From Dendrophyllia cribrosa (lineage: Eukaryota; Cnidaria; Anthozoa; Scleractinia; Dendrophylliidae): a DNA stretch of 64,000 nt. Under the pieces are notes generated by a model. The model saw nothing but the letters and a program-made list of their open reading frames with translations. It was not told the DNA's origin and made no database searches. Location: contig JAJLRJ010000013.1 in assembly GCA_024195265.1 (NCBI GenBank), positions 5,000,612 through 5,064,611 of the forward strand. The letters are read 5' to 3'. Numbering within the stretch: position 1 is the first letter of the stretch; every line of letters starts with the position of its first letter. This document shows positions 15,944 to 64,000 of this stretch, piece after piece. The translations under genes were made by a program, and so were the position numbers.

Positions 15944-16281
15944 ATAATCATTCACACACGAAAGATCAGCCTGATAGAGCAAGCATCCACACACATCAGA
16001 TTAGCCTGATAGAGTAATTATTCTCAAACAACAGATCAGCCTGATAAAGTAATCATTCACACACAAAAAACAGCCTGATAGAGTAATCATTCAAACACAT
16101 TATATCAGCCTGATAGAGTGAGCATTCAAACACAACAGATCAGCCTGATAGAGCAATCAACACACAACAGATTAGCCTAATAGAGTAGACATTAACATGC
16201 AACAGATCAGCCTGATAGAGTAATTATTCAAAAACAACAGATCAGCATGAAAGAGTAATCATTCACACACAACAGATCAGC
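15944..16281 (+). repeat. 35-bp satellite array, segment 3, grading into the 39-bp form
   Basis: About nine 35-bp units with GCCTGATAGAGTAATCATTC carry substitutions and small gaps. The transition to the 39-bp unit occurs near 16,270, where GATAGAGTA becomes CATAGCTAGAGTA, a gain of four bases. Confidence 0.8.
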
Positions 16282-19200
16282 CTCATAGCTAGAGTAATCA
16301 TTCACACACAACAAATCAGCATCATAGCTAGAGTAATCATTCACATACAACAGATCAGCTTCATAGCTAGAGTAATCATTCACATACAACAGATCAGCTT
16401 CATAGCTAGAGTAATCATTCACATACAACAGATCAGCTTCATAGCTAGAGTAATAATTCACATACAACAAATCAGCATCATAGCTAGAGTAATCATTCAC
16501 ATACAACAGATCAGCTTCATAGCTAGAGTAATCATTCACATACAACAAATCAGCTTCATAGCTAGAGTAATCATTCACATACAACAAATCAGCCTCATAG
16601 CTAGAGTAATCATTCACATACAACAGATCAGCTTCATAGCTAGAGTAATCATTCACATACAACACATCAGCATCATAGCTAGAGTAATCATTCACATACA
16701 ACAGATCAGCTTCATAGCTAGAGTAATCATTCACATACAACAAATCAGCCTCATAGCTAGAGTAATCATTCACATACAACAAATCAGCCTCATAGCTAGA
16801 GTAATCATTCACATACAACAGATCAGCTTCATAGCTAGAGTAATCATTCACATACAAACATCAGCATCATAGCTAGAGTAATCATTCACATACAACAGAT
16901 CAGCTTCATAGCTAGAGTAATCATTCACATACAACAAATCAGCCTCATAGCTAGAGTAATCATTCACATACAACAGATCAGCCTCATAGCTAGAGTAATC
17001 ATTCACATACAACAGATCAGCTTCATAGCTAGAGTAATCATTCACATACAACAGATCAGCTTCATAGCTAGAGTAATCATTCACATACAACAAATCAGCT
17101 TCATAGCTAGAGTAATCATTCACATACAACAGATCAGCTTCATAGCTAGAGTAATCATTCACATACAACAGATCAGCTTCATAGCTAGAGTAATCATTCA
17201 CATACAACAAATCAGCTTCATAGCTAGAGTAATCATTCACATACAACAGATCAGCTTCATAGCTAGAGTAATCATTCACATACAACAAATCAGCCTCATA
17301 GCTAGGGTAATCATTCACATACAACAGATCAGCCTCATACCTAGAGTAATCATTCACATACAACAAATCAGCCTCATACCTAGAGTAATCATTCACATAC
17401 AACAGATCAGCCTCATAGCTAGAGTAATCATTCACATACAACAGATCAGCGTCATAGCTAGAGTAATCATTCACATACAACAAATCAGCTTCATAGCTAG
17501 AGTAATCATTCACATACAACAGATCAGCTTCATAGCTAGAGTAATCATTCACATACAACAAATCAGCTTCATAGCTAGAGTAATCATTCACATACAACAG
17601 ATCAGCTTCATAGCTAGAGTAATCATTCACATACAACAGATCAGCCTCATAGCTAGAGTAATCATTCACATACAACAGATCAGCTTCATAGCTAGAGTAA
17701 TCATTCACATACAATAGATCAGCTTCATAGCTAGAGTAATCATTCACATACAACAGATCAGCTTCATAGCTAGAGTAATCATTCACATACAACAAATCAG
17801 CTTCATAGCTAGAGTAATCATTCACATACAACAGATCAGCTTCATAGCTAGAGTAATCATTCACATACAACAAATCAGCTTCATAGCTAGAGTAATCATT
17901 CACATACAACATCAGCCTCATAGCTAGAGTAATCATTCACATACAACAGTTCAGCTTCATAGCTAGAGTAATCATTCACATACAAGAGATCAGCTTCATA
18001 GCTAGAGTAATCATTCACATACAACACATCAGCATCATAGCTAGAGTAATCATTCACATACAACACATCAGCATCATAGCTAGAGTAATCATTCACATAC
18101 AACAGATCAGCTTCATAGCTAGAGTAATCATTCACATACAACAGATCAGCTTCATAGCTAGAGTAATCATTCACATACAGCATATCAGCATCATAGCTAG
18201 AGTAATCATTCACATACAACAGATCAGCTTCATAGCTAGAGTAATCATTCACATACAACAAATCAGCCTCATAGCTAGAGTAATCATTCACATACAACAG
18301 CCTCATAGCTAGAGTAATCATTCACATACAACAGATCAGCTTCATAGCTAGAGTAATCATTCACATACAACAGATCAGCTTCATAGCTAGAGTAATCATT
18401 CACATACAACAGATCAGCTTCATAGCTAGAGTAATCATTCACATACAACAAATCAGCTTCATAGCTAGAGTAATCATTCACATACAACAGATCAGCTTCA
18501 TAGCTAGAGTAATCATTCACATACAACAGATCAGCTTCATAGCTAGAGTAATCATTCACATACAACAAATCAGCTTCATAGCTAGAGTAATCATTCACAT
18601 ACAACACATCAGCATCATAGCTAGAGTAATCATTCACATACAACAGATCAGCTTCATAGCTAGAGTAATCATTCACATACAACAAATCAGCCTCATAGCT
18701 AGGGTAATCATTCACATACAACAGATCAGCCTCATACCTAGAGTAATCATTCACATACAACAAATCAGCCTCATACCTAGAGTAATCATTCACATACAAC
18801 AGATCAGCCTCATAGCTAGAGTAATCATTCACATACAACAGATCAGCGTCATAGCTAGAGTAATCATTCACATACAACAAATCAGCTTCATAGCTAGAGT
18901 AATCATTCACATACAACAGATCAGCTTCATAGCTAGAGTAATCATTCACATACAACAAATCAGCTTCATAGCTAGAGTAATCATTCACATACAACAGATC
19001 AGCTTCATAGCTAGAGTAATCATTCACATACAACAGATCAGCCTCATAGCTAGAGTAATCATTCACATACAACAGATCAGCTTCATAGCTAGAGTAATCA
19101 TTCACATACAATAGATCAGCTTCATAGCTAGAGTAATCATTCACATACAACAGATCAGCTTCATAGCTAGAGTAATCATTCACATACAACAAATCAGCTT

Positions 19201-22200
19201 CATAGCTAGAGTAATCATTCACATACAACAGATCAGCTTCATAGCTAGAGTAATCATTCACATACAACAAATCAGCTTCATAGCTAGAGTAATCATTCAC
19301 ATACAACATCAGCCTCATAGCTAGAGTAATCATTCACATACAACAGTTCAGCTTCATAGCTAGAGTAATCATTCACATACAAGAGATCAGCTTCATAGCT
19401 AGAGTAATCATTCACATACAACACATCAGCATCATAGCTAGAGTAATCATTCACATACAACACATCAGCATCATAGCTAGAGTAATCATTCACATACAAC
19501 AGATCAGCTTCATAGCTAGAGTAATCATTCACATACAACAGATCAGCTTCATAGCTAGAGTAATCATTCACATACAGCATATCAGCATCATAGCTAGAGT
19601 AATCATTCACATACAACAGATCAGCTTCATAGCTAGAGTAATCATTCACATACAACAAATCAGCCTCATAGCTAGAGTAATCATTCACATACAACAGCCT
19701 CATAGCTAGAGTAATCATTCACATACAACAGATCAGCTTCATAGCTAGAGTAATCATTCACATACAACAGATCAGCTTCATAGCTAGAGTAATCATTCAC
19801 ATACAACAGATCAGCTTCATAGCTAGAGTAATCATTCACATACAACAAATCAGCTTCATAGCTAGAGTAATCATTCACATACAACAGATCAGCTTCATAG
19901 CTAGAGTAATCATTCACATACAACAGATCAGCTTCATAGCTAGAGTAATCATTCACATACAACAAATCAGCTTCATAGCTAGAGTAATCATTCACATACA
20001 ACACATCAGCATCATAGCTAGAGTAATCATTCACATACAACAGATCAGCTTCATAGCTAGAGTAATCATTCACATACAACAGATCAGCTTCATAGCTAAA
20101 GTAATCATTCACATACAGCAAATTAGCATCATAGCTAGAGTAATCATTCACATACAACAGATCAGCTTCATAGCTAGAGTAATCATTCACATACAACAAA
20201 TCAGCCTCATAGCTAGAGTAATCATTCACATACAACAGATCAGCCTCATAGCTAGAGTAATCATTCACATACAACAGATCAGCTTCATAGCTAGAGTAAT
20301 CATTCACATACAACAGATCAGCTTCATAGCTAGAGTAATCATTCACATACAACAGATCAGCTTCATAGCTAGAGTAATCATTCACATACAACAAATCAGC
20401 TTCATAGCTAGAGTAATCATTCACATACAACAGATCAGCTTCATAGCTAGAGTAATCATTCACATACAACAGATCAGCTTCATAGCTAGAGTAATCATTC
20501 ACATACAACAAATCAGCTTCATAGCTAGAGTAATCATTCACATACAACAAATCAGCCTCATAGCTAGAGTAATCATTCACATACAACAGATCAGCCTCAT
20601 AGCTAGAGTAATCATTCACATACAACAAATCAGCCTCATACCTAGAGTAATCATTCACATACAACAGATCAGCCTCATAGCTAGAGTAATCATTCACATA
20701 CAACAGATCAGCGTCATAGCTAGAGTAATCATTCACATACAACAAATCAGCTTCATAGCTAGAGTAATCATTCACATACAACAAATCAGCTTCATAGCTA
20801 GAGTAATCATTCACATACAACAGATCAGCTTCATAGCTAGAGTAATCATTCACATACAACAAATCAGCTTCATAGCTAGAGTAATCATTCACATACAACA
20901 GATCAGCCTCATAGCTAGAGTAATCATTCACATACAACAGATCAGCTTCATAGCTAGAGTAATCATTCACATACAAGAGATCAGCTTCATAGCTAGAGTA
21001 ATCATTCACATACAACACATCAGCATCATAGTTAGAGTAATCATTCACATACAACACATCAGCATCATAGCTAGAGTAATCATTCACATACAACAGATCA
21101 GCTTCATAGCTAGAGTAATCATTCACATACAACAGATCAGCTTCATAGCTAGAGTAATCATTCACATACAGCAAATCAGCTTCATAGCTAGAGTAATCAT
21201 TCACATACAACAGATCAGCTTCATAGCTAGAGTAATCATTCACATACAACAGATCAGCTTCATAGCTAGAGTAATCATTCACATACAACAGATCAGCTTC
21301 ATAGCTAGAGTAATCATTCACATACAACAAATCAGCTTCATAGCTAGAGTAATCATTCACATACAACAAATCAGCCTCATAGCTATAGTAATCATTCACA
21401 TACAACAGCAGCTTCATAGCTAGAGTAATTATTCACATACAACAGATCAGCTTCATAGCTAGAGTAATCATTCACATACAACAAATCAGCTTCATAGCTA
21501 GAGTAATCTTTCACATACAACAGATCAGCTTCATAGCTAGAGTAATCATTCACATACAACAGATCAGCATCATAGCTAGAGTAATCATTCACATACAACA
21601 GATCAGCTTCATAGCTAGAGTAATCATTCACATACAACAAATCAGCCTCATAGCTAGAGTAATCATTCACATACAACAGATCAGCCTCATAGCTAGAGTA
21701 ATCATTCACATACAACAGATCAGCTTCATAGCTAGAGTAATCATTCACATACAACAAATCAGCTTCATAGCTAGAGTAATCATTCACATACAACAGATCA
21801 GCTTCATAGCTAGAGTAATCATTCACATACAACAAATCAGCTTCATAGCTAGAGTAATCATTCACATACAACAGATCAGCTTCATAGCTAGAGTAATCAT
21901 TCACATACAACAGATCAGCTTCATAGCTAGAGTAATCATTCACATACAACAGATCAGCTTCATAGCTAGAGTAATCATTCACATACAACAGATCAGCTTC
22001 ATAGCTAGAGTAATCATTCACATACAACAGATCAGCTTCATAGCTAGAGTAATCATTCACACACAACAAATCAGCATCATAGCTAGAGTAATCATTTACA
22101 TACAACAAATCAGCTTCATAGCTAGAGTAATCATTCACATACAACAGACCAGCTTCATAGCTAGAGTAATCATTCACATACAACAAATCAGCTTCATAGC

Positions 22201-24706
22201 TAGAGTAATCATTCACATACAACAAATCAGCTTCATAGCTAGAGTAATCATTCACATACAACAAATCAGCTTCATAGCTAGAGTAATCATTCACATACAA
22301 CAAATCAGCATCATAGCTAGAGTAATCATTCACATACAACAGATCAGCTTCATAGCTAGAGTAATCATTCACATACAACAGATCAGCTTCATAGCTAGAG
22401 TAATCATTCACATACAACAGATCAGCTTCATAGCTAGAGTAATCATTCACATACAACAAATCAACTTCATAGCTAGAGTAATCATTCACATACAACAAAT
22501 CAGCCTCATAGCTAGAGTAATCATTCACATACAACAGATCAGCTTCATAGCTAGAGTAATCATTCACATACAACAAATCAGCTTCATAGCTAGAGTAATC
22601 ATTCACATACAACAAATCAGCATCATAGCTAGAGTAATCATTCACATACAACAGATCAGCTTCATAGCTAGAGTAATCATTCACATACAACAAATCAGCC
22701 TCATAGCTAGAGTAATCATTCATATACAACAGATCAGCGTCATAGCTAGAGTAATCATTCACATACAACAAATCAGCATCATAGCTAGAGTAATCATTCA
22801 CATACAACAGATCAGCTTCATAGCTAGAGTAATCATTCGCATACAACAAATCAGCCTCATAGCTAGAGTAATCATTCACATACAACAGATCAGCCTCATA
22901 GCTAGAGTAATCATTCACATACAACAGATCAGCTTCATAGCTAGAGTAATCATTCACATAGAAGATCAGCTTCATAGCTAGAGTAATCATTCACATACAA
23001 CAGATCAGCTTCATAGCTAGAGTAATCATTCACATACAACAGATCAGCTTCATAGCTAGAGTAATCATTCACATACAAGAGATCAGCTTCATAGCTAGAG
23101 TAATCATTTACATACAACAGATCAGCTTCATAGCTAGAGTAATCATTCACATACAACAGATCAGCTTCATAGCTAGAGTAATCATTCACATACAACAAAT
23201 CAGCTTCATAGCTAGAGTAATCATTCACATACAACAAATCAGCCTCATAGCTATAGTAATCATTCACATACAACAGCAGCTTCATAGCTAGAGTAATTAT
23301 TCACATACAACAGATCAACTTCATAGCTAGAGTAATCATTCACATACAACAAATCAGCTTCATAGCTAGAGTAAGTTTTCACATACAACAGATCAGCTTC
23401 ATAGCTAGAGTAATCATTCACATACAACAGATCAGCATCATAGCTAGAGTAATCATTCACATACAACAAATCAGCCTCATAGCTAGAGTAATCATTCACA
23501 TACAACAGATCAGCCTCATAGCTAGAGTAATCATTCACATACAACAGATCAGCTTCATAGCTAGAGTAATCATTCACATACAACAAATCAGCCTCATAGC
23601 TAGAGTAATCATTCACATACAACAGATCAGCCTCATAGCTAGAGTAATCATTCACATACAACAGATCAGCTTCAGAGCTAGAGTAATCATTCACATACAA
23701 CAAATCAGCTTCATAGCTAGAGTAATCATTCACATACAACAGATCAGCTTCATAGCTAGAGTAATCATTCACATACAACAAATCAGCTTCATAGCTAGAG
23801 TAATCATTCACATACAACAAATCAGCCTCATAGCTAGAGTAATCATTCACATACAACAGATCAGCTTCATAGCTAGAGTAATCATTCACATACAACAAAT
23901 CAGCCTCATAGCTAGAGTAATCATTCACATACAACAGATCAGCCTCATAGCTAGAGTAATCATTCACATACAACAGATCAGCTTCATAGCTAGAGTAATC
24001 ATTCACATACAACAAATCAGCTTCATAGCTAGAGTAATCATTCACATACAACAGATCAGCTTCATAGCTAGAGTAATCATTCACATACAACAGATCAGCT
24101 TCATAGCTAGAGTAATCATTCACATACAATAGATCAGCTTCATAGCTAGAGTAATCATTCACATACAACAAATCAGCTTCATAGCTAGAGTAATCATTCA
24201 CATACAACAGATCAGCTTCATAGCTAGTGTAATCATTCACATACAACAGATCAGCTTCATAGCTAGAGTAATCATTCACACACAACAGATCAGCTTCATA
24301 GCTAGAGTAATCATTCACACACAACACATCAGCTTCATAGCTAGAGTAATCATTCACATACAACAGATCAGCTTCATAGCTAGAGTAATCATTCACATAC
24401 AACAGATCAGCATCATAGCTAGAGTAATCATTCACATACAACAGATCAGCTTCATAGCTAGAGTAATCATTCACATACAACAAATCAGCTTCATAGCTAG
24501 AGTAATCATTCACATACAACAGATCAGCATCATAGCTAGAGTAATCATTCACATACAACAGATCAGCTTCATAGCTAGAGTAATCATTCACATACAACAA
24601 ATCAGCCTCATAGCTAGAGTAATCATTCACATACAACAGATCAGCCTCATAGCTAGAGTAATCATTCACATACAACAGATCAGCTTCATAGCTAGAGTAA
24701 TCATTC
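16282..24706 (-). repeat. 39-bp satellite with higher-order organisation, about 216 copies
   Basis: The unit runs CATAGCTAGAGTAATCATTC then ACATACAACAGATCAGCTT. Two positions vary constantly (CAG/CAA before ATC, and TTC/CTC/ATC before ATAG). Rare private variants (CTAGGGTAA, CATACCTAG, short deletions) recur at fixed spacing: 1,397 bases (36 units minus 7 bases) between 17.3-18.3 and 18.7-19.7 kb, and 1,868 bases (48 units minus 4) between 21.38 and 23.25 kb. On the minus strand each unit encodes YVNDYSSYEADLL without stops, giving frames up to 578 codons. These are broken by at least seven frameshifting unit deletions, so I treat them as repeat by-products rather than one gene. Confidence 0.95.
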
Positions 24707-25157
24707 ATACATACATAAACTTTATTTTAACTCGAATTTAAGTGTAGCTTGTGAAGCTAATTTCTTCGAGTAAAATAACATATAAGAAAGCAAAAAATAA
24801 AATTTACAACAACAAAAAATAAATAAATAAATATTTACACTATATACATATTTTTCTATACTAATTAAAACTAATACATTGGTTAGATCACATTTAAATT
24901 CAAGAAGTATAGAAGACAATCACGTCTAAAAAGATATTACTTTAAGAAGTCTTCTAAAACTAGTTAAAGTAGGCTCAGATCTTACATTTATTTATTAGGT
25001 AGGGAGTTCCAGGTCTTAGATGCAAAGTAACGAAAGGAGTTGAGACCAAAAGTAGTGGTAACAGGTTTGCATAGTGATAAAATATTAGTACCTCTAAAAA
25101 AGTATTCTGACTGACGCAGACTAAACATGTCTCTAAGATATTTAGGAAAACTATCAT
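24707..25157 (-). mobile_element. 5'-truncated LINE 3' end inserted in the satellite
   Basis: On the minus strand, 25,157 down to 24,985 encodes FPKYLRDMFSLRQSEYFFRG, then TTTFGLNSFRYFASKTWNSL ending PNK and stop. This is the typical extreme C-terminus of CR1/L2-type reverse transcriptases. It is followed by an AT-rich 3' untranslated region and a tail of ATGT repeats at 24,707-24,722, a normal LINE ending. The satellite resumes on both sides at the same phase of the unit (around GTGAATGATTAC), consistent with insertion and a very short target duplication. The LINE frame happens to be in frame with the minus-strand satellite frame. Confidence 0.75.
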
Positions 25158-25632
25158 AGTTCACATACAACAAATCAGCCTCATAGCTAGAGTAATCATT
25201 CACATACAACAGATCAGCCTCATGGCTAGAGTAATCATTCACATACAACAGATCAGCTTCATAGCTAGAATAATCATTCACATACAACAGATCAGCTTCA
25301 TAGCTAGAGTAATCATTCACATACAACAAATCAGCTTCATAGCTAGAGTAATCATTCACATACAACAGATCAGCTTCATAGCTAGAGTAATCATTCACAT
25401 ACAACAGATCAGCTTCATAGCTAGAGTAATCATTCACATACAACAAATCAGCTTCATAGCTAGAGTAATCATTCACATACAACAAATCAGCTTCATAGCT
25501 AGAGTAATCATTCACATACAACAGATCAGCTTCATAGCTAGAGTAATCATTCACATACAACAGATCAGCTTCATAGCTAGAGTAATCATTCACATACAAC
25601 AAATCAGCTTCATAGCTAGAGTAATCATTCAC
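25158..25632 (-). repeat. 39-bp satellite, block beyond the LINE
   Basis: About twelve further 39-bp units belong to the same array before the LINE inserted. Its right edge grades back to the 35-bp form. Confidence 0.9.
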
Positions 25633-25770
25633 ACACAACAGACCAGTCTGATCGAGCAATCATTCACACACAACAGATCAGCCGGATAGAGTAATCATTC
25701 ACACACAACACATCAGCCTGATAGAATAATCATTCACACACAACAGACCAGTCTGATCGAGCAATCATTC
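25633..25770 (+). repeat. 35-bp satellite, right edge of the array
   Basis: Four diverged 35-bp units lie here, two of them sharing ACCAGTCTGATCGAGCAATC. Confidence 0.75.
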
Positions 25771-38935: not shown

Positions 38936-40099
38936 CTAAAAATGACAGAATAGACCAATTTACAGTTGTCTACTTAGTAACCTGGCCTTTGTGTAGAAAT
39001 GAGGCTGGAGTTGACCTTGTCTTGATAGAAACCTTCCTTCTTTTTATATGTAAATCATGTTGTTCTTTATGCTAACAAACATGATTTACATATACATGTA
39101 AAGGTTTGTATCGGAACAAAGTCAACTCCAACCTCACTTTCACTCAAAGGCCAGGCTACTAAGCACACAACTGTAAAATGGTCTATTGTTTACGACGGAG
39201 AGAAAGGGAAACGAATATGAAGTCAGATCCGAGACTAAATTGGTCTTTCGACTCATCACGCTGTTTTGCTTGTTCGTCTCGTGTACTGAGGTCGTCTCGT
39301 CAACCTCCGAGATCGAATCGTCTTGAAATTGCTCCAAGTCGTCTCATTGTTACTGAGTTTGTCCCGTGGACTCTCCAGTTCGACTCGTAGTGCTTCACTC
39401 TCGAGGTCGTCTCGACGACTGTCCAGTTCAACTTGTTGTGCTTCACTCTCGAGGTCGTCTCGTCAACTTCTGAGATAGACTCGTCTTCCCACAGACACCC
39501 CAAGCTCAGTGTGAGAGTCAGTTACATGTGGTACCATATTCATAATAATTTTTATTAACATGGCTGCAAATATAAAGATTTGTATGGGAATCTCGATAAT
39601 AGATTCAAGAAGATAATTGATTTGCAAAATTTCTCAATAAAAAAGCCGTACCTTATTTTCATGGTGTGTTGCTTGCTTCCTGTGTGGTTATTTTCCTGAT
39701 TTAATGCGATTTAAGCTATTTCTTTGTTCCCCATGTTTCCACTAAAAAAAAATAGGCAGTCTACATTATGACTGCATGTAGCTTACTGCGCCTGTTATTA
39801 CTTACAGTGTAGATTACAGTATTTTATCACGCTGGGCACTTATTAACCTTTTCTATCTTCAGGATAGGTGCTTATGAAATTTGCACCATTATCAGCAAGT
39901 GTAGTCTGTTTATTTTGAAACAAAACAATAAATGGTAACAATGAAACGTGAAGGTGTAACTAAGCAACATTTCTGTAAAAAAATCTGAAGAAAACGCCGT
40001 CTCTGGGGAAGTATCTTATTAGTACTTATTATTGCAGCTGAAAGAACCACATGGACATTGTGGAAAATTCCAATGAATCCAGAGATTCTAAGCCAGTGA

Positions 40100-45140: not shown

Positions 45141-45498
45141 AAAATTAAATGGTCCGTCCCTAAATAGTTGACAAAGTACTTTTTCTCAAACATGTATTGC
45201 TCTTAGAACACCAAGAAGAAAATATCAAGTGATTTCTTTAAGGAAGAACAAACCATAATAGGTTTTTCTGCATTTTTTTCCATGAAACTTGGGAAGAACT
45301 TGAAAAAATTAGCCAATTTTTTCAAGTTGCAATCCATTTCCATGTTCAGATCGGCTTTGTCCATCTACATTTCAACTTGCGAGACATCATGTGGCACACG
45401 TGTTTCGGGTGACGAGTGAGTACATAGCACGGAACCTGATATTGTGAACGGGTCATTGTGCAGTCTATTTGTGTTGGCTTTCTTGCTGGCGACATTTA

Positions 45499-45559
45499 GA
45501 TCGTTACATCGTGCTGATGAGTTGCAATAACAACGAAACAGTTGTCCACGGTTACGATC
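45499..45559 (+). ncRNA. Type I hammerhead ribozyme, copy 1
   Basis: All canonical parts are present. The stem I 5' strand is GATCG, an internal loop, then CGTG. The core CTGATGA is at 45,514-45,520. Stem II is GTTG/CAAC with loop CAATAA. The core GAAA is at 45,535-45,538. Stem III is one C-G pair plus the A-U closing pair, with a 4-base loop. Then comes the cleavage triplet GTC ending at 45,546, and the stem I 3' strand CACG, loop, CGATC. The very short stem III is typical of the hammerheads known from Penelope-like elements and retrozymes, which often act best as dimers. Confidence 0.88.
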
Positions 45560-46028
45560 CTACTTTATCGGTTTCTATCGTGATGTCTCGGAAATTTTAC
45601 TTTTTTTCTTTTTTACGTGGTCAGATCAGCCTTGCAGTTCATTGTTGACATTGTTTTTGTTCATTCATTTTTTTGGCTGGTTAGGTCTCTCGCAGATCCC
45701 ACGTATCATTAGCAGCATTATCGTTTGCGGTCTTCTGCAGTTTACTTTTATTTCCATATATTTTGGGACCGTAGGTCTTTTCAGATCCGATATGCTGTGC
45801 TCAAAAAGCATGGTTTTGCTCATGCGTTTAAATGTTCAGATCGGCTTGTCCATCTACATTTCAATTTGCGAGACATCTTTGCGATACACTGTGGGCTCCT
45901 TGTTTCCCGAAACACGTGATGTGGCACGCGTGTTTCGGGTGACAAGTGAGTACATAGTACGGAACCTGATATTGTGAACGGGTCATTGTGCAGTCTATTT
46001 GCGTTGGCTTTCTTGCTGGCGACACTTA

Positions 46029-46089
46029 GATCGTTACACCGTGCTGATGAGTTGCAATAACAACGAAACAATTGTCCACGGTTACGATC
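46029..46089 (+). ncRNA. Type I hammerhead ribozyme, copy 2
   Basis: It has the same fold and identical core. The differences are confined to the stem I internal loop (T at 45,509 is C at 46,039, which turns a possible G-U into a C-G pair) and the stem III loop (AGTT to AATT). The predicted cleavage is after 46,076, exactly 530 bases from copy 1. Retention of every core base in both units, with change only where the fold tolerates it, supports function. Confidence 0.88.
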
Positions 46090-46162
46090 CTACTTTATCG
46101 GTTTCTATCGTGATGATGTCTCGCAAATTTTACTTTTTTTTTTTTACGTGGTCAGATCAGCC

Positions 46163-46230
46163 CAACCTCGTTCTCTCTCTCTCTCTCGCTCCAGGGGGTG
46201 GGAAGAAGAGAGACCCTGGGAACGAGGTTG
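46163..46230. repeat. 68-bp MITE inserted in ribozyme unit 2
   Basis: CAACCTCGTTC is mirrored by GAACGAGGTTG. The exact 9-bp duplication AGATCAGCC lies at 46,154-46,162 and 46,231-46,239. Unit 1 at about 45,624-45,640 has the single uninterrupted site (CAGATCAGCCTTGCAG). Similar palindromic sequence occurs at 52,716-52,800, and a half-copy at about 61,005. Confidence 0.75.
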
Positions 46231-46317
46231 AGATCAGCCTTGCAGTTCATTGTTTTTGTTCATTCATTTTTATCTCGTTAATGCGCATGCGCAAAACGAG
46301 ATATCGGTAAGGGACAA

Positions 46318-46373
46318 AAGTTGTTAACAAAGGTTTCTTTGTTTAACTTTGTTAACTTTTGTCCGGGAGGGTA
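46318..46373. repeat. Strong hairpin near the left end of the 5.4-kb insertion
   Basis: GGGACAAAAGTTGTTAACAA is mirrored by TTGTTAACTTTTGTCC, with a short T-rich loop. It is non-coding. Confidence 0.55.
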
Positions 46374-47761
46374 GTTCTTTATACAAGCTATATTATGGCA
46401 TTGAGGATATAGTTGGTTAAACTGGTTAGGATTTCAAGAAGGGCGTCACATACGGCCACTAAAATTTTTGGGGAGCTCCCCCGGACCTATTGTTAATTTC
46501 CCTAGGGTATTGGGATGTCATGTCATGTCATGTTTTTAAGTGGATGTGTCCGAGACGGCTTAATTGATCTTCAAAGGTTTAAGAAATTTGCGTTTTTCTT
46601 GTCAATCATTTTTCGTAAAGCCATTAGACCTCGTTTAGAAGGGTAAAAAACGTCAAATGTATGTTCTTGGGAAACGCAGTTTTAAAAATTCACGGTGTAT
46701 TTTTATAATGAATGGAGATGTTTTGAGGAAGTTAAATGGCACGGGAAAGTTTGTGTTTTCATATGAGCGATAATATAATAAATTGAGGAATAATCAATTA
46801 AGGAAAATAACGAAATATAATATCCAATTTATTCAACACTTTTGAGAGATTTGACAGATTGTAAAGTATAAATAGGTGATGTCATGCAGTTAATTCTCGC
46901 GGAGATTGCAGAGTGATTTTTTGTGTTTAGTTAAGGTGGTTCGATACAGTTTTCTGGAGACCGTACCAACATTTTTCAATCGGCTTTTAAGCGGCCTTCT
47001 CCAAGTCAGATCAACGTGACATTTTCACCACTAACTGGTTTTGAATTGAAGTTTGGCAAGATATATTTTCTGGTAAAATCGATATTACCATGACAACGAT
47101 AAACAAGAAACTTAGAAATCAGTAAAAGTGAAATTTAGCCCGTTTAAGATTTCGCATTGAAAATCCCACATAGGCATCTTAAAATATGGTATATGGCATA
47201 TATATTTTGCAAGAATAAAAAAATTCTGTATGTTTGAATTAAAATAAATCGCAATAACATTTCAAACCTTACTATTTGTGTACTGGTATTAAATTGATCG
47301 AGAGATTAACACTGGTTTTGTGAAATTACTTAATGATAATGTCAAAAAGTAGCTTGATGTTATGTTTGTAAACTTTGAAAGTTTTGTTTACTTTCTCTTT
47401 TGCGATCTTGAGAACTACCTGTTTTCCTAACATCACTTCATGTGCAATTTTTGGGTAATTTTCGATTTGAATGGCTTTTGCAAAAATCTGAGAAACGGCT
47501 CGATGGATTTTTTTAAAACATTCACTGTGCATGCTTACCGATGTGCAAAATATTATCTGAAAGTTTCATTGCCATTGATTCACTGGAACGCCTTTAAATT
47601 TAAAGATGAAAACGACGTTCGAACCGGCCGAAAAAATGACGTTACAAATTTACTTTTTTAAGTTATGCTTAATAATGATTTCAAATCAATGCACACTGCA
47701 TTCCTCCGTGATTTATACTTTCGTTGTGAGCTGCTGTGCATCTATTATCCCTCCCTACTTA

Positions 47762-51680: not shown

Positions 51681-52715
51681 CGCATTAACGAGATGGCTTT
51701 AAGAGCCCTTTGATTTTAGCTGGTTAGGTCTCTCGCAGATCCCACGTATCATTAGCAGCATTATCGTTTGCGGTCTTCTGCAGTTTACTTTTAAATCCAT
51801 TTCCATCCTGGCCATCCGCAGCCAAAGATAACGAATACTTGTTTCTGTGCATTGGTAGAGTATTTGTTAACAAAACTGGACCATTATTTGCAGGTTTCCA
51901 TTGAAACAAATATGTTTTTTGGCTCTTAGCTGCTGCTTTTCAAAGTTAGAACTTAGAATGTGTACTCCCAACTAGTGAGAACTAATACTGGGAGGGTGCT
52001 GGATAAATAGTGCAGGTGAAATTAAATACTATACGATCAGCGGTTACAGGCTCTTGAGATGAGCGGGTGAGCTCATAGTACGGATTTCAGGAAGAGCTAA
52101 TGTGATACTAATTTTTCGAAAGACACAGCCTTTCTTCTTCAGGGTCTTACAGATAATAACTCGTAAGGCAAGAAAATATGAGGGCCCGTTCTGGTCAAAA
52201 TTATCCTTATATATTTTTCCCTATGTAGAAATGATAAAACTGTGTTTGCAATTATTTGTATTGTGTTTTATAAATAATTATATGTACTACTAGAATTATT
52301 TACATGCGTACGAATTAATTTTATGTGTCCTATAGTTATTTATACGTTGTTTGAATTATTTTATTCTGACCATGAACTATTTTTTCCTCTACATTAATTT
52401 ATTAGCAAATCCCATATGCCTTTGCTCGCTGTTGGCGAATCCCGTCATCCAAATCGCGTTGAACACTGGTAATTTTCAACATGGCGGCCCGAACTATAGT
52501 CGCAGTGGTGTTATCCGAGAAAGAAATGAGCGAGGTTTTCGCAACTTTCTGCAAAATTTGAAGGGAGTATTCCGTCTCTTTTTGATCCCCCACCCCATCC
52601 CCCATCCTTCTGGATCCCCCCTTTTTGACCCCATCTGGACCCCATCTTTTTCTTCTAAGAAATGACCAAATGACAGCGGTTTTGAATTAATACACATGTG
52701 CGAACTAGGCAAAAA

Positions 52716-52800
52716 TCAATCTCGGTCCCATGGTCTTCTCCTTCCCGTTCCTCTCTCGCTCCAGGGGACGGGAAGGAGAAGACCCTGGGAACGAGGTTGG
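52716..52800. repeat. Palindromic MITE, same family as the 68-bp element
   Basis: CATGGTCTTCTCCTTCCCGT is mirrored by ACGGGAAGGAGAAGACC followed by CTGGGAACGAGGTTGGG. It shares the GAACGAGGTTG end with 46,163-46,230. Confidence 0.6.
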
Positions 52801-54139
52801 GAAAAAATGTAAAACGATACGTAGGATCTACGGAAGATAAAGTAATAAAGCCACACACTGTGAATCTATTAATATTAATACAAAATAGTGTTTTTTTAGT
52901 AAGTTACTTTCGATCAAGCTTAATCATTGTGATGCAACATCTATACCCTGATCTGTACAGACACATACATGTATCATATTGAATAATGTAGCAATACTTG
53001 TATGTGAGCACAAATAAAAGCATAGTTTTGGGAGTCACTACTGATTCGAGTTTGATTACAATTGATCTCGATTTAATTCGTTTCGAATCATCGCTTACAC
53101 TGCCTCTGCTAGAAGGTACAAAGCACAAATAGACGCAATGATACGATTCCAAGTTCCTTTTAAATCTTATTAACCGAGATTAAGGGTTTGCTTGAAAGTC
53201 AAATAGATCAGACAATTTCCGAAAAATCTGTTCAGAAATTGTGGAATACCTCCAGAGGTAGTCCTATTTTTCCGTTTCGGAATGGAACGTTGGAACTTTT
53301 CTTACCACTTGAATTAAGAAAAATTCAAATCGCTAAATCGAGTTAACGGTGCGTCAACGGTCTGGGTACCAGGATGGGGAAATGAAATATTTAAATGGTA
53401 AGGGCAATCTCGTCGGTTGGTCGGTAAATCTTGTAAAATCGCTTACCATTATGTAATGGTAACTCCAACCGGTTTTTTTCCTACAAATGGTAAGCACCCT
53501 AAAGGTTTAATTTGTTTTTTCCGTGGTTCACTTTCTCGTTGCGTCCACCATTTTTAAATTTTATGGCGAATACCGCTGACCACTCGTTCCCAAATTCCCG
53601 TTCCTCATTCCCCGTTCCCGGCTACTGGTTAAAGTAAATTAACATCCATTCACGAGTCGGCTCACTCCCAAAAAAATCACATAACATCAATTTACAAACT
53701 AATTGAAGCAAGTTTGGACTGCTCTAAACGTTAACGAGATAAAACGTTTAAATGCAGAGAACCACTCAACACTACGATAAATAGTGGTAACTTTCTTTCC
53801 GGATCTCCTTTATGAAGGGATGCGAGTACCAGACGTCACCTAAAGTGTAGATAAACTGTTTAAAATGCAAGGCTAGTACAACGGAAATTAATGACAGGTT
53901 TAATGGCCAATATTTCCATTAGTAGAACTAGTCTTCCACAGGGCCAGCGTTGGAGTGAAAATAATATACAACGGCTCTTAAATTTGAATATAGATAACAA
54001 GTACATGATTGGCTAATATAAGATTACATGAATAGGTACAAAAACAATGGCTAGTAAATCTGATAACTTCTAAATTAAAGCATATTATAGTTATTGTAAA
54101 TATCATCTACTTCAATGTTCATCACATCTGTTTAAGCCA
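52801..54139. other. Non-coding, no gene seen
   Basis: Contains dispersed low-copy phrases only, for example repeated ATGGTAA words at 53,390-53,490. No exon or structural RNA could be supported. Confidence 0.3.
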
Positions 54140-54779
54140 TTAGGTGTTAGTGTTTAGATAGACTTCTCTTGCTTTGCGCGGGAGGTGTTTTTTGTCGGCA
54201 ATAGTTCCAGAGGAACAAGTTTCATATCTGCAATGGAGTGACCTGGTAGGTGAAGTGGGTAGGAACTGCAGCAGATGAATTTGCGTGACTTGTGTTATTA
54301 GTAGTGGCTTGTCTATGTTCAGTAAATCGTTCGCGAAATGTGCGTTTAGTTTCCCCAATATATTGCTTGTTACATTTTTTGCATTCAATCATATAAATCA
54401 AGTTTTTAGAGTTGCAGGTTATATGCTGTTTTATTTGCCTGGTTTCATTTGTAGAGGTGAAAGAGTATGATGATTTACCATTTTCGATCTGTGGACGGTT
54501 CAGACAGGTCAGACAGCCGTGTTTTGATTCGCAGCGGAACGTTCCGGGAGAGGCCGGAGTTACCGTAGAAGAATTGATAAGTTTAGCGCGTACAAGTAAG
54601 TCACGGAGGTTAGGAGAACGTCGATATGATACAACAGGTGTTTCTTTGAATATTTCTTTACAGTGGTCCGAGGAATGCAGAAGAGGTTGTTTTTTGTGAA
54701 GTAATTTTTGAATGTTTCCTAGTGCTGGATTGTAAGCGATTACTAAAGGTACTCTGTCTATTATTTTTATTTTCAGCAA
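54140..54779 (-). pseudogene. Penelope-like retroelement relic: linker and GIY-YIG region
   Basis: A 185-codon frame (54,779-54,222) reads VVSYRRSPNLRDLLVRAKL, then a cysteine-rich linker (FRCESKHGCLTCL), then NLIYMIECKKCNKQYIGETK and RTFRERFTEHR. This is the reverse-transcriptase C-terminal linker followed by the start of a GIY-YIG nuclease (Y-IGET with RERFTEHR). After HFTYQ the frame breaks. The expected continuation (LPGHSIADMKLVPLELLPT, then KAREVYL) is present but spread over two other frames, so at least two frameshifts have accumulated. The upstream reverse transcriptase core is missing. In an intact element this protein drives retrotransposition in the nucleus. Confidence 0.75.
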
Positions 54780-54954
54780 AAAGATTTCATAAAATTCATG
54801 ATTTCAAAAGCACTGCAGTAGTACTGAATGAACCAGGAAACCAGGAAACCAGGAAAACAAGTTTTTAAACAAGCTTTTAACTAGTGTTAAAACACTAACG
54901 AGGCGTGCACCTTTGGTAAAATGTACCCCATAAGTAAGCTACATAGATGTAACT

Positions 54955-60915: not shown

Positions 60916-61162
60916 GCAAACATACAACAAACATTCCAATATCTGTTTTGTGCTTTCGCTTGGGGTCTTCGGATAATTTTATTTGACGTTCGCGTTCGCG
61001 GCAACCTCGTTCCAAGGGTCTCTGACGACGTTCAAATAGCCAAATGGCATACATTTCGTAAGGATTGTAAAAAAAAAAACATTACCATGAACAATCATTG
61101 CAAAATAAAGCATTGCCAGATGTATTCTTTTCACCTTCGTTATACCATTTAGTCTTTGATCT

Positions 61163-62124
61163 CTAACAATTTTTTTCTAATTCCTTTTTTGAGAATTCAA
61201 GGTTTTCAATTATATCTTTCTTTTGTATTTCTTCTAAAATTGGATTTTCCAGCTCCTTTTCTAGCATGAAGATTTTTTTCTCTAAACTTGTTTCTCTATT
61301 ATTAGTTTTACGTTTTTTGTCCGCGGAATATTTAAGTGATTTTTTACGCACCTTTAGTTTAATCATGTCCCAAAGTAAAGTAGGATTCACTGTTTCATCT
61401 TCTTGATATTCTTCCTGGGTTTCCTCGATAGTTGATTTTATTAGTTTATATAATCATCATCTTTCAAATGAGAAATATTGAGTTTCCAAAAACCTGGGCC
61501 TCTTTGGTTGGTATGAGAAGATATATTTAGAGATATCATCGAATGGTCTGTTTGAAAGCCAGGAAGTATATCAGCCAAGGTAACATTGCTCAGTATGTTT
61601 CGGGACACTAAGAAAAAATCAAGTCTGCAGTGTATTTCAGGATGCCTTTGCCGCCAAGTTAATCTTCTACAATCCGGGTTTAAGGTTCGCCACGCATCAT
61701 TAAGATCCATATTTTCACAGAACTCTTTTACGACCATTTGAGCGTTGAGATGTGTTTTGGCAAGGCCCCCTCTTTTATCTTTTTCGATATCCATAACAAG
61801 ATTAAAGTCGCCGCCAATGATTATTTCTTCACATTGGAAATCTAAAAGATGAGAAAACAAATTTTCAAAGAAATTTGGATTGTCATCTTTTGGTGCATAT
61901 ATATTCGCAATGGTAATACTCTTGCCGTTCGCTGCTAAGTCGCATATAATGTAACGGCCTTCATCATCCATAAAAGTTTTCGATATTTTAAGATCGAAGT
62001 TGTTATTAAATAGAATGCAAACGCCAGCTTTTTTACTGGAAAAGCCACAGAAAAGGCTTTTGTAACCCCATTCTGCGGACCATAAATCCGAGGTTTCAAA
62101 GGAACAATGGACTTCTTGTAACAT
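61163..62124 (-). pseudogene. L1/Tx1-type LINE ORF2 fragment: apurinic endonuclease domain
   Basis: The 227-codon frame (62,124-61,441) reads LQEVHCS, then CDLAANGKSITIANIYAPKD, IIIGGDFNLVMD, LNDAWRTLNP, RLDFFLVSRN and DHSMISLNIS, ending with RGPGFWKLNIS. These are the active-site blocks of the APE-type endonuclease (QE, NIYAP, GGDFN, DH) in their usual order. A frameshift near 61,440 moves the reading to KLIKSTIEETQEEYQEDETV, which continues to about 61,163 and stops. The N-terminus before QEVH and the whole reverse transcriptase are missing, so this is an internal fragment rather than a typical 5'-truncated copy. In an intact element this domain nicks target DNA. Confidence 0.8.
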
Positions 62125-64000
62125 GTTTTTTTCTCAAAGTTTGTGTGGCTTGATTTTTCTTGACTTTCAGTATGTTGATAAGGAGACCTCATAAGGCTGT
62201 TTTGCGAAGACAAAAATTCTATTGCAATTTTTTCTACCTCAACATCCAATTTTATCCCACTACTATGAAAACAAGTTTTCAATTAAGGGCATAACAATGG
62301 GTCAACTTATTTGAAAGCTTGGACCAGGGAAGAGTGCACGCGCTAACTTTGAGCATTAACGAACACCCACCAAACTTCGTGATTTTTTCCCAAGTTTATC
62401 TGGGAACAATGGATGTGATAGGGTTTTTCGTACTTGTGGTGTTTCCATGGCAACCATACCGAGAAACCCAAATTTTGAATTTTCTTCTTAAATTAACATT
62501 TAAACGAAAGAATTGTAGCTTTTTATGTAGTAAATTTTACAATTTAAGATCATTTTAGCGTGTTCTTTCGATTTTGATCAATTTTGACACATTTTTTTTT
62601 GGCTTTTGTAACATGGCAATCTAAGATCGCGGCCATTGAAAATGATGACACTAGTTTGCCGTAACGTACTGTTGAGAAATAGACCAAAAGTATTCTTGGG
62701 TGATCGATAAAAGCGTCGTTTTCATTAACTGTCCACCTTGGTAAAGAATACAAATTGTAAAACAATAAGACAAAACAACACCTACTTTCACCACAATAAG
62801 CCCACATTTATTATTTTTTCTAACTGTGTTCTTACTACAAGACCAAAAAACTATTTGTTGCAGTGCATTTTGATTACAGCTTGTCACATCAAAGAGTAAC
62901 GAAGCAGTTAACAATATACTGGGCTAACAAGTAGATAATTACTGACAGTTTGTTATTAGAGTTGTCCTTTTAAACTAAAGCGAAATCATGTTAGCAGTAG
63001 CGCCAAGGTGCTTTATATCATTCCCTAAATGGCACAGGAGATAGATTAAATTAAACGTCCTCTAACTAAATAATGCATGGCGGCCTTGGTTAATAATTAC
63101 CGTAACAATCATTATACCCCTAATTTTTGCTCTACAACTACAGTTAAATTGTCAAGCAGGGTCAAAACGACCTCAATCACGTGTCTTAATCATGTGATAT
63201 CACGTTTTTATGCCGTGTTCTATCAGCCACTCAAAGAGGATGCAAGGAATGCTACTCCGCGCTCATAAAAGCGGTGCTCTCGCCCAGCAGATTCACCTCT
63301 GGTTGTCATGTCAACAGTGAAGAGGAGCTCGGTACGTGTTTGATTGAGATACACGGGTAGGGTCACCTGCAAAACACGAATCGTTTCAAAAGTAAGAACT
63401 CCAGAAGCGCAATATTTCGACTAACACCTATGTAAAAGGTCGATGAAAGATGCATCATGAAAAATTAACATAAAGTTGCACCTACACGAGGGAACTTGCA
63501 GTTTGCAACCTACAACAGAATGCTGACGAGAGCAGTGCTGGACAAGTTACAAAATACACGCTCCATCGTATTTCGCAGAAAGTAAAAGACTAAAACACAA
63601 TGTTGTTTGCAAGACGAGTCACAATGAAGTGGTTTTACAAACGCAACTTCGGCGTTGTGCTGCAAGTTGCCTTGTCTACAGCATCAGCCATCTTCAGGAT
63701 CTTTCTGCATGTACCGGTATCCATGAACCACTCATTGTCTTCTATTGTTTGTGAGGTATTGTCTTTTTGGTCTTGTTTTGCATTTGTATTATTGTCGTTC
63801 TTTGTTCCTTTTGTTTTACGTAATGTGTGCTCCGGTACATGCAGAATCTACCCATCTTCAGTCGCTTGCCTAATAACGAGATGATTTAAATTTACTATTT
63901 TTAAACAAAAGGTACCTTTCCATCGCCAAGGTGAGCAGTTCCTGGTTCAATCCTGAAAATGAAATAAAGACATTTAACTTTTCTTTTCCTTTCCGAAGTA
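62125..64000. other. No supported gene
   Basis: Short frames only. A B-box-like GGTTCAATCC occurs at about 63,944-63,955 with no convincing A-box upstream. A stop-free 94-codon frame at 63,600-63,884 is hydrophobic and T-rich and looks like chance. Confidence 0.3.

Follow-up and report, generated by a model that had tools for sequence, protein, structure and literature searches.

The 64,000-nucleotide stretch of the Dendrophyllia cribrosa genome analysed here (the window) carries one copy of what is probably a new family of metazoan non-LTR retrozymes, and one that is probably copied at two sites, T1 and T2, by the reverse transcriptase and endonuclease of a Penelope-like element (PLE). The retrozyme family is real and multi-copy, belongs to a known class, is larger than the retrozymes reported so far and has a dimer-type ribozyme. 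Its insertion anatomy suggests a tie to PLE-type two-site copying, and from this and the sequence we infer self-cleavage, circularity and the identity of the enzyme. The original prediction, made from the letters of the window, had held that the family itself may be undescribed; since the class is already in print (PMC7229834, 2020), this is tenable only at the family level, where it is possible. The novelty is the insertion anatomy.

The two tandem type I hammerheads, 530 bases apart, of the original prediction were confirmed by two independent approaches (Table 1). The covariance-model check that it proposed, run with Rfam on both strands of the whole window, matched Hammerhead_HH9 (RF02275) at copy A with 45.5 bits (E 1.9e-8) and at copy B with 47.9 bits (E 3e-9), both below the gathering score of the family, 52. 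An independent hammerhead descriptor returned exactly these two on both strands of the window, and three motifs in 60 dinucleotide shuffles. The core, the GTTG/CAAC stem II, the GTC cleavage triplet and the one-pair helix III, which is closed by a tetraloop, are as first described, and each copy has the core, the three helices and the stem I internal loop of a type I hammerhead. The inner stem I, given as four pairs (CGTG/CACG), has six in both copies: AUCGUG/CACGGU with one U-G pair in copy A and ACCGUG/CACGGU in copy B. The two ribozymes differ twice, by this U-G pair, which is C-G in copy B, and by the helix III loop (AGTT in copy A, AATT in copy B). Loops 1 and 2 are present and their tertiary contact is putative. 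Copy B also holds 41 nt that are absent from copy A and that include one arm of a hairpin.

Table 1. Features of the retrozyme insertion and of related sequences in the window.
Feature	Position	Strand	Evidence or remark
Retrozyme insertion, about 1.6 units, 5'-truncated	45342..46271	+	Tandem homology (copy A begins at 45342; copy B begins at 45832 and ends at 46271); genome-wide siblings
Hammerhead copy A, type I	45496..45568	+	Cleavage after 45546; Rfam RF02275, descriptor
Hammerhead copy B, type I	46026..46098	+	Cleavage after 46076; helix III hexamer CAATTG, a palindrome
Unit between cleavage sites	45547..46076	+	530 nt, 42% GC
T1, copy A	45632..45663	+	9-nt insertion relative to siblings; 15/39 sibling right ends here
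T1, copy B	46240..46262	+	3' of the 68-nt insert
T2	45732..45753	+	About 90 nt after T1 in siblings; 19/39 sibling right ends here
Palindromic insert in copy B, 68 nt, MITE-like	46163..46230		Flanked by its own 9-bp duplication AGATCAGCC at 46154-46162 and 46231-46239
Inverted repeat around ribozyme B	45863..46129	+	45863-45886 pairs with 46106-46129
Fragment of the same retrozyme family, 87 nt, reaching T2	51714..51800	+	96.6% identity to 45671-45757
PLE remnant, GIY-YIG endonuclease	54118..54803	-	Pfam PF01541, E 8.5e-7; downstream sequence holds CTAGCCTTGCATT

The ribozyme stems covary. In a gap-free alignment of 22 distinct ribozymes (the window's two plus 20 of other loci), pairs form in 97.0% of the cells of inner stem I and in 98.9% of those of stem II, but in only 51.8% of those of outer stem I, which is therefore not common to all families. 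The stem covariation score is 0.329; sliding the partners gives no more than 0.093, and none of 500 shuffles reached the observed score. Nine pairs changed on both sides and 19 further pair types were counted, values matched by 110 and 392 of the 500 shuffles, respectively, so that neither is in excess over the shuffles. As a sign against the ribozymes, the original prediction had named free decay of the core bases in other genomic copies; among young copies of the family the 13 core bases diverge less than the flanking columns (0.64% versus 2.16%), yet with a permutation p of 0.059 this conservation is suggestive only.

The loop of helix III may allow pairing between ribozymes. The helix III hexamer is palindromic in 46 of 48 window-family ribozymes (CAATTG in 44, CAGCTG in two, CAGTTG in one, which is copy A, and CGGCTG in one) and in 46 of 55 ribozymes of other loci (two of them, at L005/L006, counted twice), where it is mainly CAGCTG. 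Going from AATT to AGCT takes two changes, which together preserve the palindrome. All 55 descriptor matches have a one-pair helix III, a pair that the descriptor itself requires. Two hexamers with the flanking A-U pair could form an eight-pair helix, of -6.4 kcal/mol for B with B and -3.4 kcal/mol for A with A. A one-pair helix III with a palindromic tetraloop is the arrangement of the amphibian-type dimeric hammerheads, which cleave better as dimers (PMC7229834). In the minimal hammerheads of PLEs helix III or the loop-loop contacts are missing, whereas both window copies have the one-pair helix III.

A long target duplication had been claimed for the window copy and was not found. The repeats at 45623-45672 and 46231-46271 are the unit sequence itself, split in copy B by the MITE-like insert, and the flanks 45200-45360 and 46240-46480 share no direct repeat of at least 11 nt with one mismatch allowed; on the repeat search and the unit alignment the long duplication was rejected for this copy, where no inverted piece was seen either. 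Position 46271 was rejected as the 3' end of the family, as the right ends of the siblings stop instead at T1 or T2. Pieces akin to the 68-nt insert lie at 52751-52802 and 61002-61023. Elsewhere in the window, at 38957-39179 and other places, there are many weak matches to microRNA families, under their gathering scores and often on both strands, which are probably palindromic MITEs. A 9.5-kb tandem array of about 247 copies of a 39-bp unit, with several frames open, occupies 16181-25751, and related 35-bp arrays lie nearby.

That the element encodes no protein and resembles a retrozyme, as first proposed, is supported by the tandem hammerheads and by a longest internal frame of 148 aa, counted from stop to stop, which has no Pfam match. 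The retrozyme contains no reverse transcriptase and no GIY-YIG endonuclease of its own, the PLE remnant of the window being separate. An LTR reading was dropped, with neither TSD nor PPT seen by eye; plant LTR retrozymes have a type III hammerhead, LTR, PBS and PPT, and the hammerheads here are of type I, with PBS and PPT judged by eye only. A tRNA-derived SINE was likewise rejected, as the search found no tRNA, and pol III box matches in the element occur only with two mismatches and carry no information. The sense circle of 530 nt folds with a z of -6.5 and five other units with -4.6 to -6.6; since two of 12 random window stretches also reach -3.7 and -11.7, the self-paired fold of the unit is only consistent with a retrozyme.

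The copies in the genome, whose count the original prediction had called for, are numerous: in the 627-Mb assembly (22 contigs, including the window) the ribozyme core CTGATGAGTTGCAATAACAACGAAAC has 478 matches with at most three mismatches, compared with none for a reversed-pattern control. Searching at the DNA level with 45342-46162 yielded 1648 first-look candidates; the best 40 places were scored, one at 84% identity and the others at 90% or more. One of the 40 is the window itself and the remaining 39 (L069-L107) are referred to below as siblings. A further 68 loci (L001-L068; L005 and L006 are one place) hold 72 of the 73 matches returned by the Rfam type I model (RF00163). The unit is matched by 53 of them, in pieces at 68-90% identity, and not by the other 15. 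As only 74 of 97571 candidates of the RF00163 search were scored and the window's own copies are not among the matches listed, these match counts are not copy numbers.

Complete units from 10 siblings measure 508-554 nt. Besides the 1.6 tandem units of the window copy, ribozymes lie in tandem 527 nt apart in L027 and 531 nt apart at C1:39357922/39358453, and in one sister locus the spacing of partial units is 466 nt. Beyond its own genome, the ribozyme pattern had no match in viral_contigs or genome_contigs. L085 and L087, retrozyme copies of opposite orientation separated by about 117 kb on C12, have common flanks and so look like a segmental duplication and not like two insertions; both were retained in the sibling counts. 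The same insert, starting GGAGCTTAAGCAACGACG, occurs at different unit positions in L075 and L093. It is highly improbable that the element is an ordinary satellite, multiplied by recombination, in which the ribozyme travels as a passenger: the newt and cave-cricket hammerheads were indeed first described in satellites, one of which, pDo500, measures roughly 500 bp (PMC2837043), but the 40 places lie dispersed and are insertions shorter than two units, whose 3' ends are fixed while their 5' ends scatter and which are flanked by repeats.

The evidence on how these insertions were made comes from their ends, which were classified in unit coordinates (u1 being the first base after cleavage). The 5' ends of the 39 siblings scatter, and their right ends fall mainly at two places, T1 (about u117, ending ..TTGCAGTTCATTGTTTTTGTTCA; 15 siblings) and T2 (about u207, ending ..CTGCAGTTTACTTTTATTT; 19 siblings), with five elsewhere; the distance between T1 and T2 ends is mostly 89-90 nt. 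All 39 read through the ribozyme junction without a break and none has its right end at the cleavage site, so a linear, cleaved monomer copied from its 3' terminus is not the template. Uncleaved tandem RNA and a circle both fit the intact junction. Four sibling chains start at u1, while another mapping puts the starts 6 to 21 nt upstream of it.

An inverted piece is present in 23 of the 39 siblings, 16 of which have both outer ends resolved. Eight of these are T1|T2, seven T2|T1 and one T1|T1, that is, 15 of 16 are mixed, where independent end use would make about half of the two-ended insertions mixed. The sister families, in which 21 head-to-head insertions were counted after dropping L005 (the same place as L006), again have 16 resolved cases, with eight T1|T2, seven T2|T1 and one T2|T2 (L035). 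As scored, L106 and L035 are exceptions to the T1/T2 rule; L106, the lone T1|T1 sibling, has a T2 piece 262 bp further out. That pieces of one locus were copied from the same template is supported in part: over u1-86 the same-locus nearest-neighbour value was 0.291 against a permutation maximum of 0.131, and over a second segment it was 0.202, under the maximum of 0.305. Among the ten inverted pieces that start at T1, five (L073, L075, L082, L089 and L099) have their stops in a span of 15 nt (q718-732), at the 3' strand of the ribozyme's stem II and helix III, as if reverse transcriptase had halted at the folded hammerhead.

Direct repeats accompany the two-sided insertions. The two flanks share a repeat of at least 8 nt (longest common substring) in 15 of 39 siblings compared with 42 of 1480 swapped flanks, and of at least 10 nt in 10 of 39 compared with 2 of 1480. 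Repeats of at least 8 nt occur in 13 of 16 resolved two-sided insertions, two of 16 without an inverted piece and none of seven with an unresolved end; the 24 siblings that lack them include 14 of the 16 and all of the seven. In the resolved two-sided insertions the repeats measure 8-14 nt and can contain a few element bases, and in L095 a repeat, AAATCTATCAA, is visible by eye that the script missed. Target duplications of more than 4 bp are accordingly a property of the family, though none was found at the window copy.

The 5' truncation and the size of these repeats, 8-14 nt, are also compatible with copying by LINE (non-LTR) machinery, and a fragment of a LINE-type endonuclease ORF (Exo_endo_phos) lies at 61441-62133 on the minus strand of the window. 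The inverted pieces would then be products of twin priming, in which the inverted piece derives from the element interior. The outer end of the inverted piece is here the other terminus in 15 of 16 resolved siblings and in 15 of 16 resolved sister insertions, no poly-A or simple-repeat 3' tail was seen by eye, and the PLE of the same genome displays the same paired termini; we regard a LINE origin of the copies as improbable. The two 3' start sites, the one-sided tail and the head-to-head pieces are those of Penelope-type insertions. In a lizard PLE, reverse transcription starts internally, both target strands are cut and extended by the PLE protein, and the 'tail' seen in genomic copies is the stretch that separates two reverse transcription start sites (PMC11167929); rotifer PLEs have an inverted pseudo-LTR (pLTR), a tail on one side and duplications of 8-10 bp (PMC3846280). 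On this ground T1 and T2 look like two reverse transcription start sites.

A PLE family of the same genome has the same anatomy. The PLE fragment of the window has 114 relatives, including one at 65% identity in Oculina patagonica, which we take to be a stony coral. In L038, at about 1550-2413, a PLE GIY-YIG fragment is nested in opposite orientation in a sister retrozyme, so that the PLE family was inserted after that retrozyme copy. The 3' part of this PLE gave 1178 first-look candidates, of which the best 40 were scored, at 91-97% identity (its own place aside). Nearly all rows of that search end at a terminus P-T1 because the query ends there, and counts of P-T1 and of a second terminus, P-T2, were taken from separate readings. 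Among the 17 PLE 3' ends read first, three of which belong to head-to-head places, 11 lie at P-T1, soon after CAGTTTTG, and six at P-T2, CTCTGCATTCAAAGG, the two termini being 105 nt apart. Seven head-to-head PLE places were examined. Five are resolved (L125; L123/L124; L126/L127; L133/L134; and L113/L137, about 10 kb apart), the last four of them read at their ends, and each of the five pairs a P-T2 end with a P-T1 end. They share repeats of 12, 12, 13, 8 and 12 nt, compared with at most 7 nt in 20 swapped pairs; in the other two places (L122; L135/L136) one end breaks off short of the termini. Four PLE copies (L128-L131), which share the 5' position of an inverted stretch of about 50 nt, are possibly a shortened subfamily.

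The retrozyme and this PLE also share sequence at one terminus. T1 and P-T1 align as CAGCCTTGCA(G)TTCA..GTTTT with a score of 14; in a sample of 3998 window 40-mers, which includes the element's own copies, 11 score as high. T2 and P-T2 have no significant likeness (score 8, reached by 489 of the 3998). The shared T1 would also fit a decayed or deleted PLE pLTR instead of a separate family with an RNA life of its own, the more so as tandem PLE pLTRs with type I hammerheads are known (PMC7761336). Such an origin is unlikely in the face of 478 matches to a single ribozyme family, relatives with the same unit body at 53 of 68 loci, a helix III that is present and stems that covary. One copy of the PLE family with a 1086-residue frame has, in addition, no hammerhead match with E of 5 or less in a stretch of 4401 bases (the PLE 3' end not included) and no other likeness to the 530-nt unit, although this copy may lack its pLTR.

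A retrozyme family of its own, probably copied by the PLE, is the reading we prefer. Tandem loci would be transcribed, and the two hammerheads, possibly paired via the palindromic helix III, would release a highly self-paired RNA of 530 nt that may be ligated into a circle. As the insertion anatomy shows, genomic copying begins internally at T1 or T2, runs backwards through the intact ribozyme junction and stops at scattered 5' points; where it starts on both sides, T1 serves on one side and T2 on the other, and the result is a head-to-head insertion flanked by direct repeats of 8-14 nt. The enzyme would be the PLE reverse transcriptase with its GIY-YIG endonuclease, because a PLE family of the same genome matches the retrozyme in having two comparable 3' ends, in their pairing, in the repeats and in the T1 sequence. 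Of the two drivers originally put forward, Penelope or LINE, it is thus the first that is favoured by the two fixed 3' termini, the head-to-head pieces, the repeats and the 3' end shared with the PLE. A broader proposal, on which our judgement is evenly balanced, is that animal retrozymes are obligate PLE parasites, whose RNA circle would hold copies of two PLE start sites, T1 and T2, each serving one subunit of a PLE dimer, so that a single circle would prime both target strands with one cDNA from each site.

The enzyme that spreads animal retrozymes has so far been an open question. PLEs were proposed in 2020 only as a strong candidate (PMC7229834), metazoan retrozymes may depend on PLEs (PMC8969392), and a 2020 review describes retrozymes as repeats without a conserved motif that helps to deduce the driver (PMC7761336), in contrast to the T1/T2 anatomy and the PLE-like 3' end of the present family. 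Among the open-licence PMC papers listed, no title or abstract opening reports such shared termini. The two-terminus signature, present in 39 insertions and in sister families as well as in a PLE of the same genome, makes the driver question testable, and the retrozyme RNA may be a natural RNA that a PLE uses in trans.

Among the known systems, the plant LTR retrozymes (PMC4918200, PMC7229834) likewise have a unit released between two hammerheads and differ in their type III hammerheads, LTRs and 4-bp duplications. The axolotl HHR_Amex1 and related amphibian hammerheads (PMC7229834) likewise have a helix III of a single pair, closed by a palindromic tetraloop, and differ from the window family in sequence, unit size and host. 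The closest class is that of the metazoan non-LTR retrozymes of coral, mussel and axolotl (Cervera and de la Pena 2020, PMC7229834), which likewise have type I hammerheads in tandem dimers or longer arrays, no protein, a GC content below 50%, target duplications of more than 4 bp, self-paired RNA and PLEs in the same genome. The unit is larger here, 508-554 nt against about 170-400 nt in that paper, and also lies above the range of about 150-450 bp given for the class, which is not strictly defining. Helix III, one pair and a palindromic hexamer here, is more stable in the invertebrate retrozymes of that paper. From PLEs the retrozyme differs in encoding neither reverse transcriptase nor endonuclease and in having helix III, unlike a minimal hammerhead, and its termini are about 90 nt apart where those of tailed PLEs are separated by 30-40 nt. 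With the tailed PLEs (PMC11167929, PMC3846280) it nevertheless has in common two reverse transcription start sites, a one-sided tail, head-to-head pieces and 5' truncation, and its repeats of 8-14 nt stand beside their duplications of 8-10 bp (PMC3846280).
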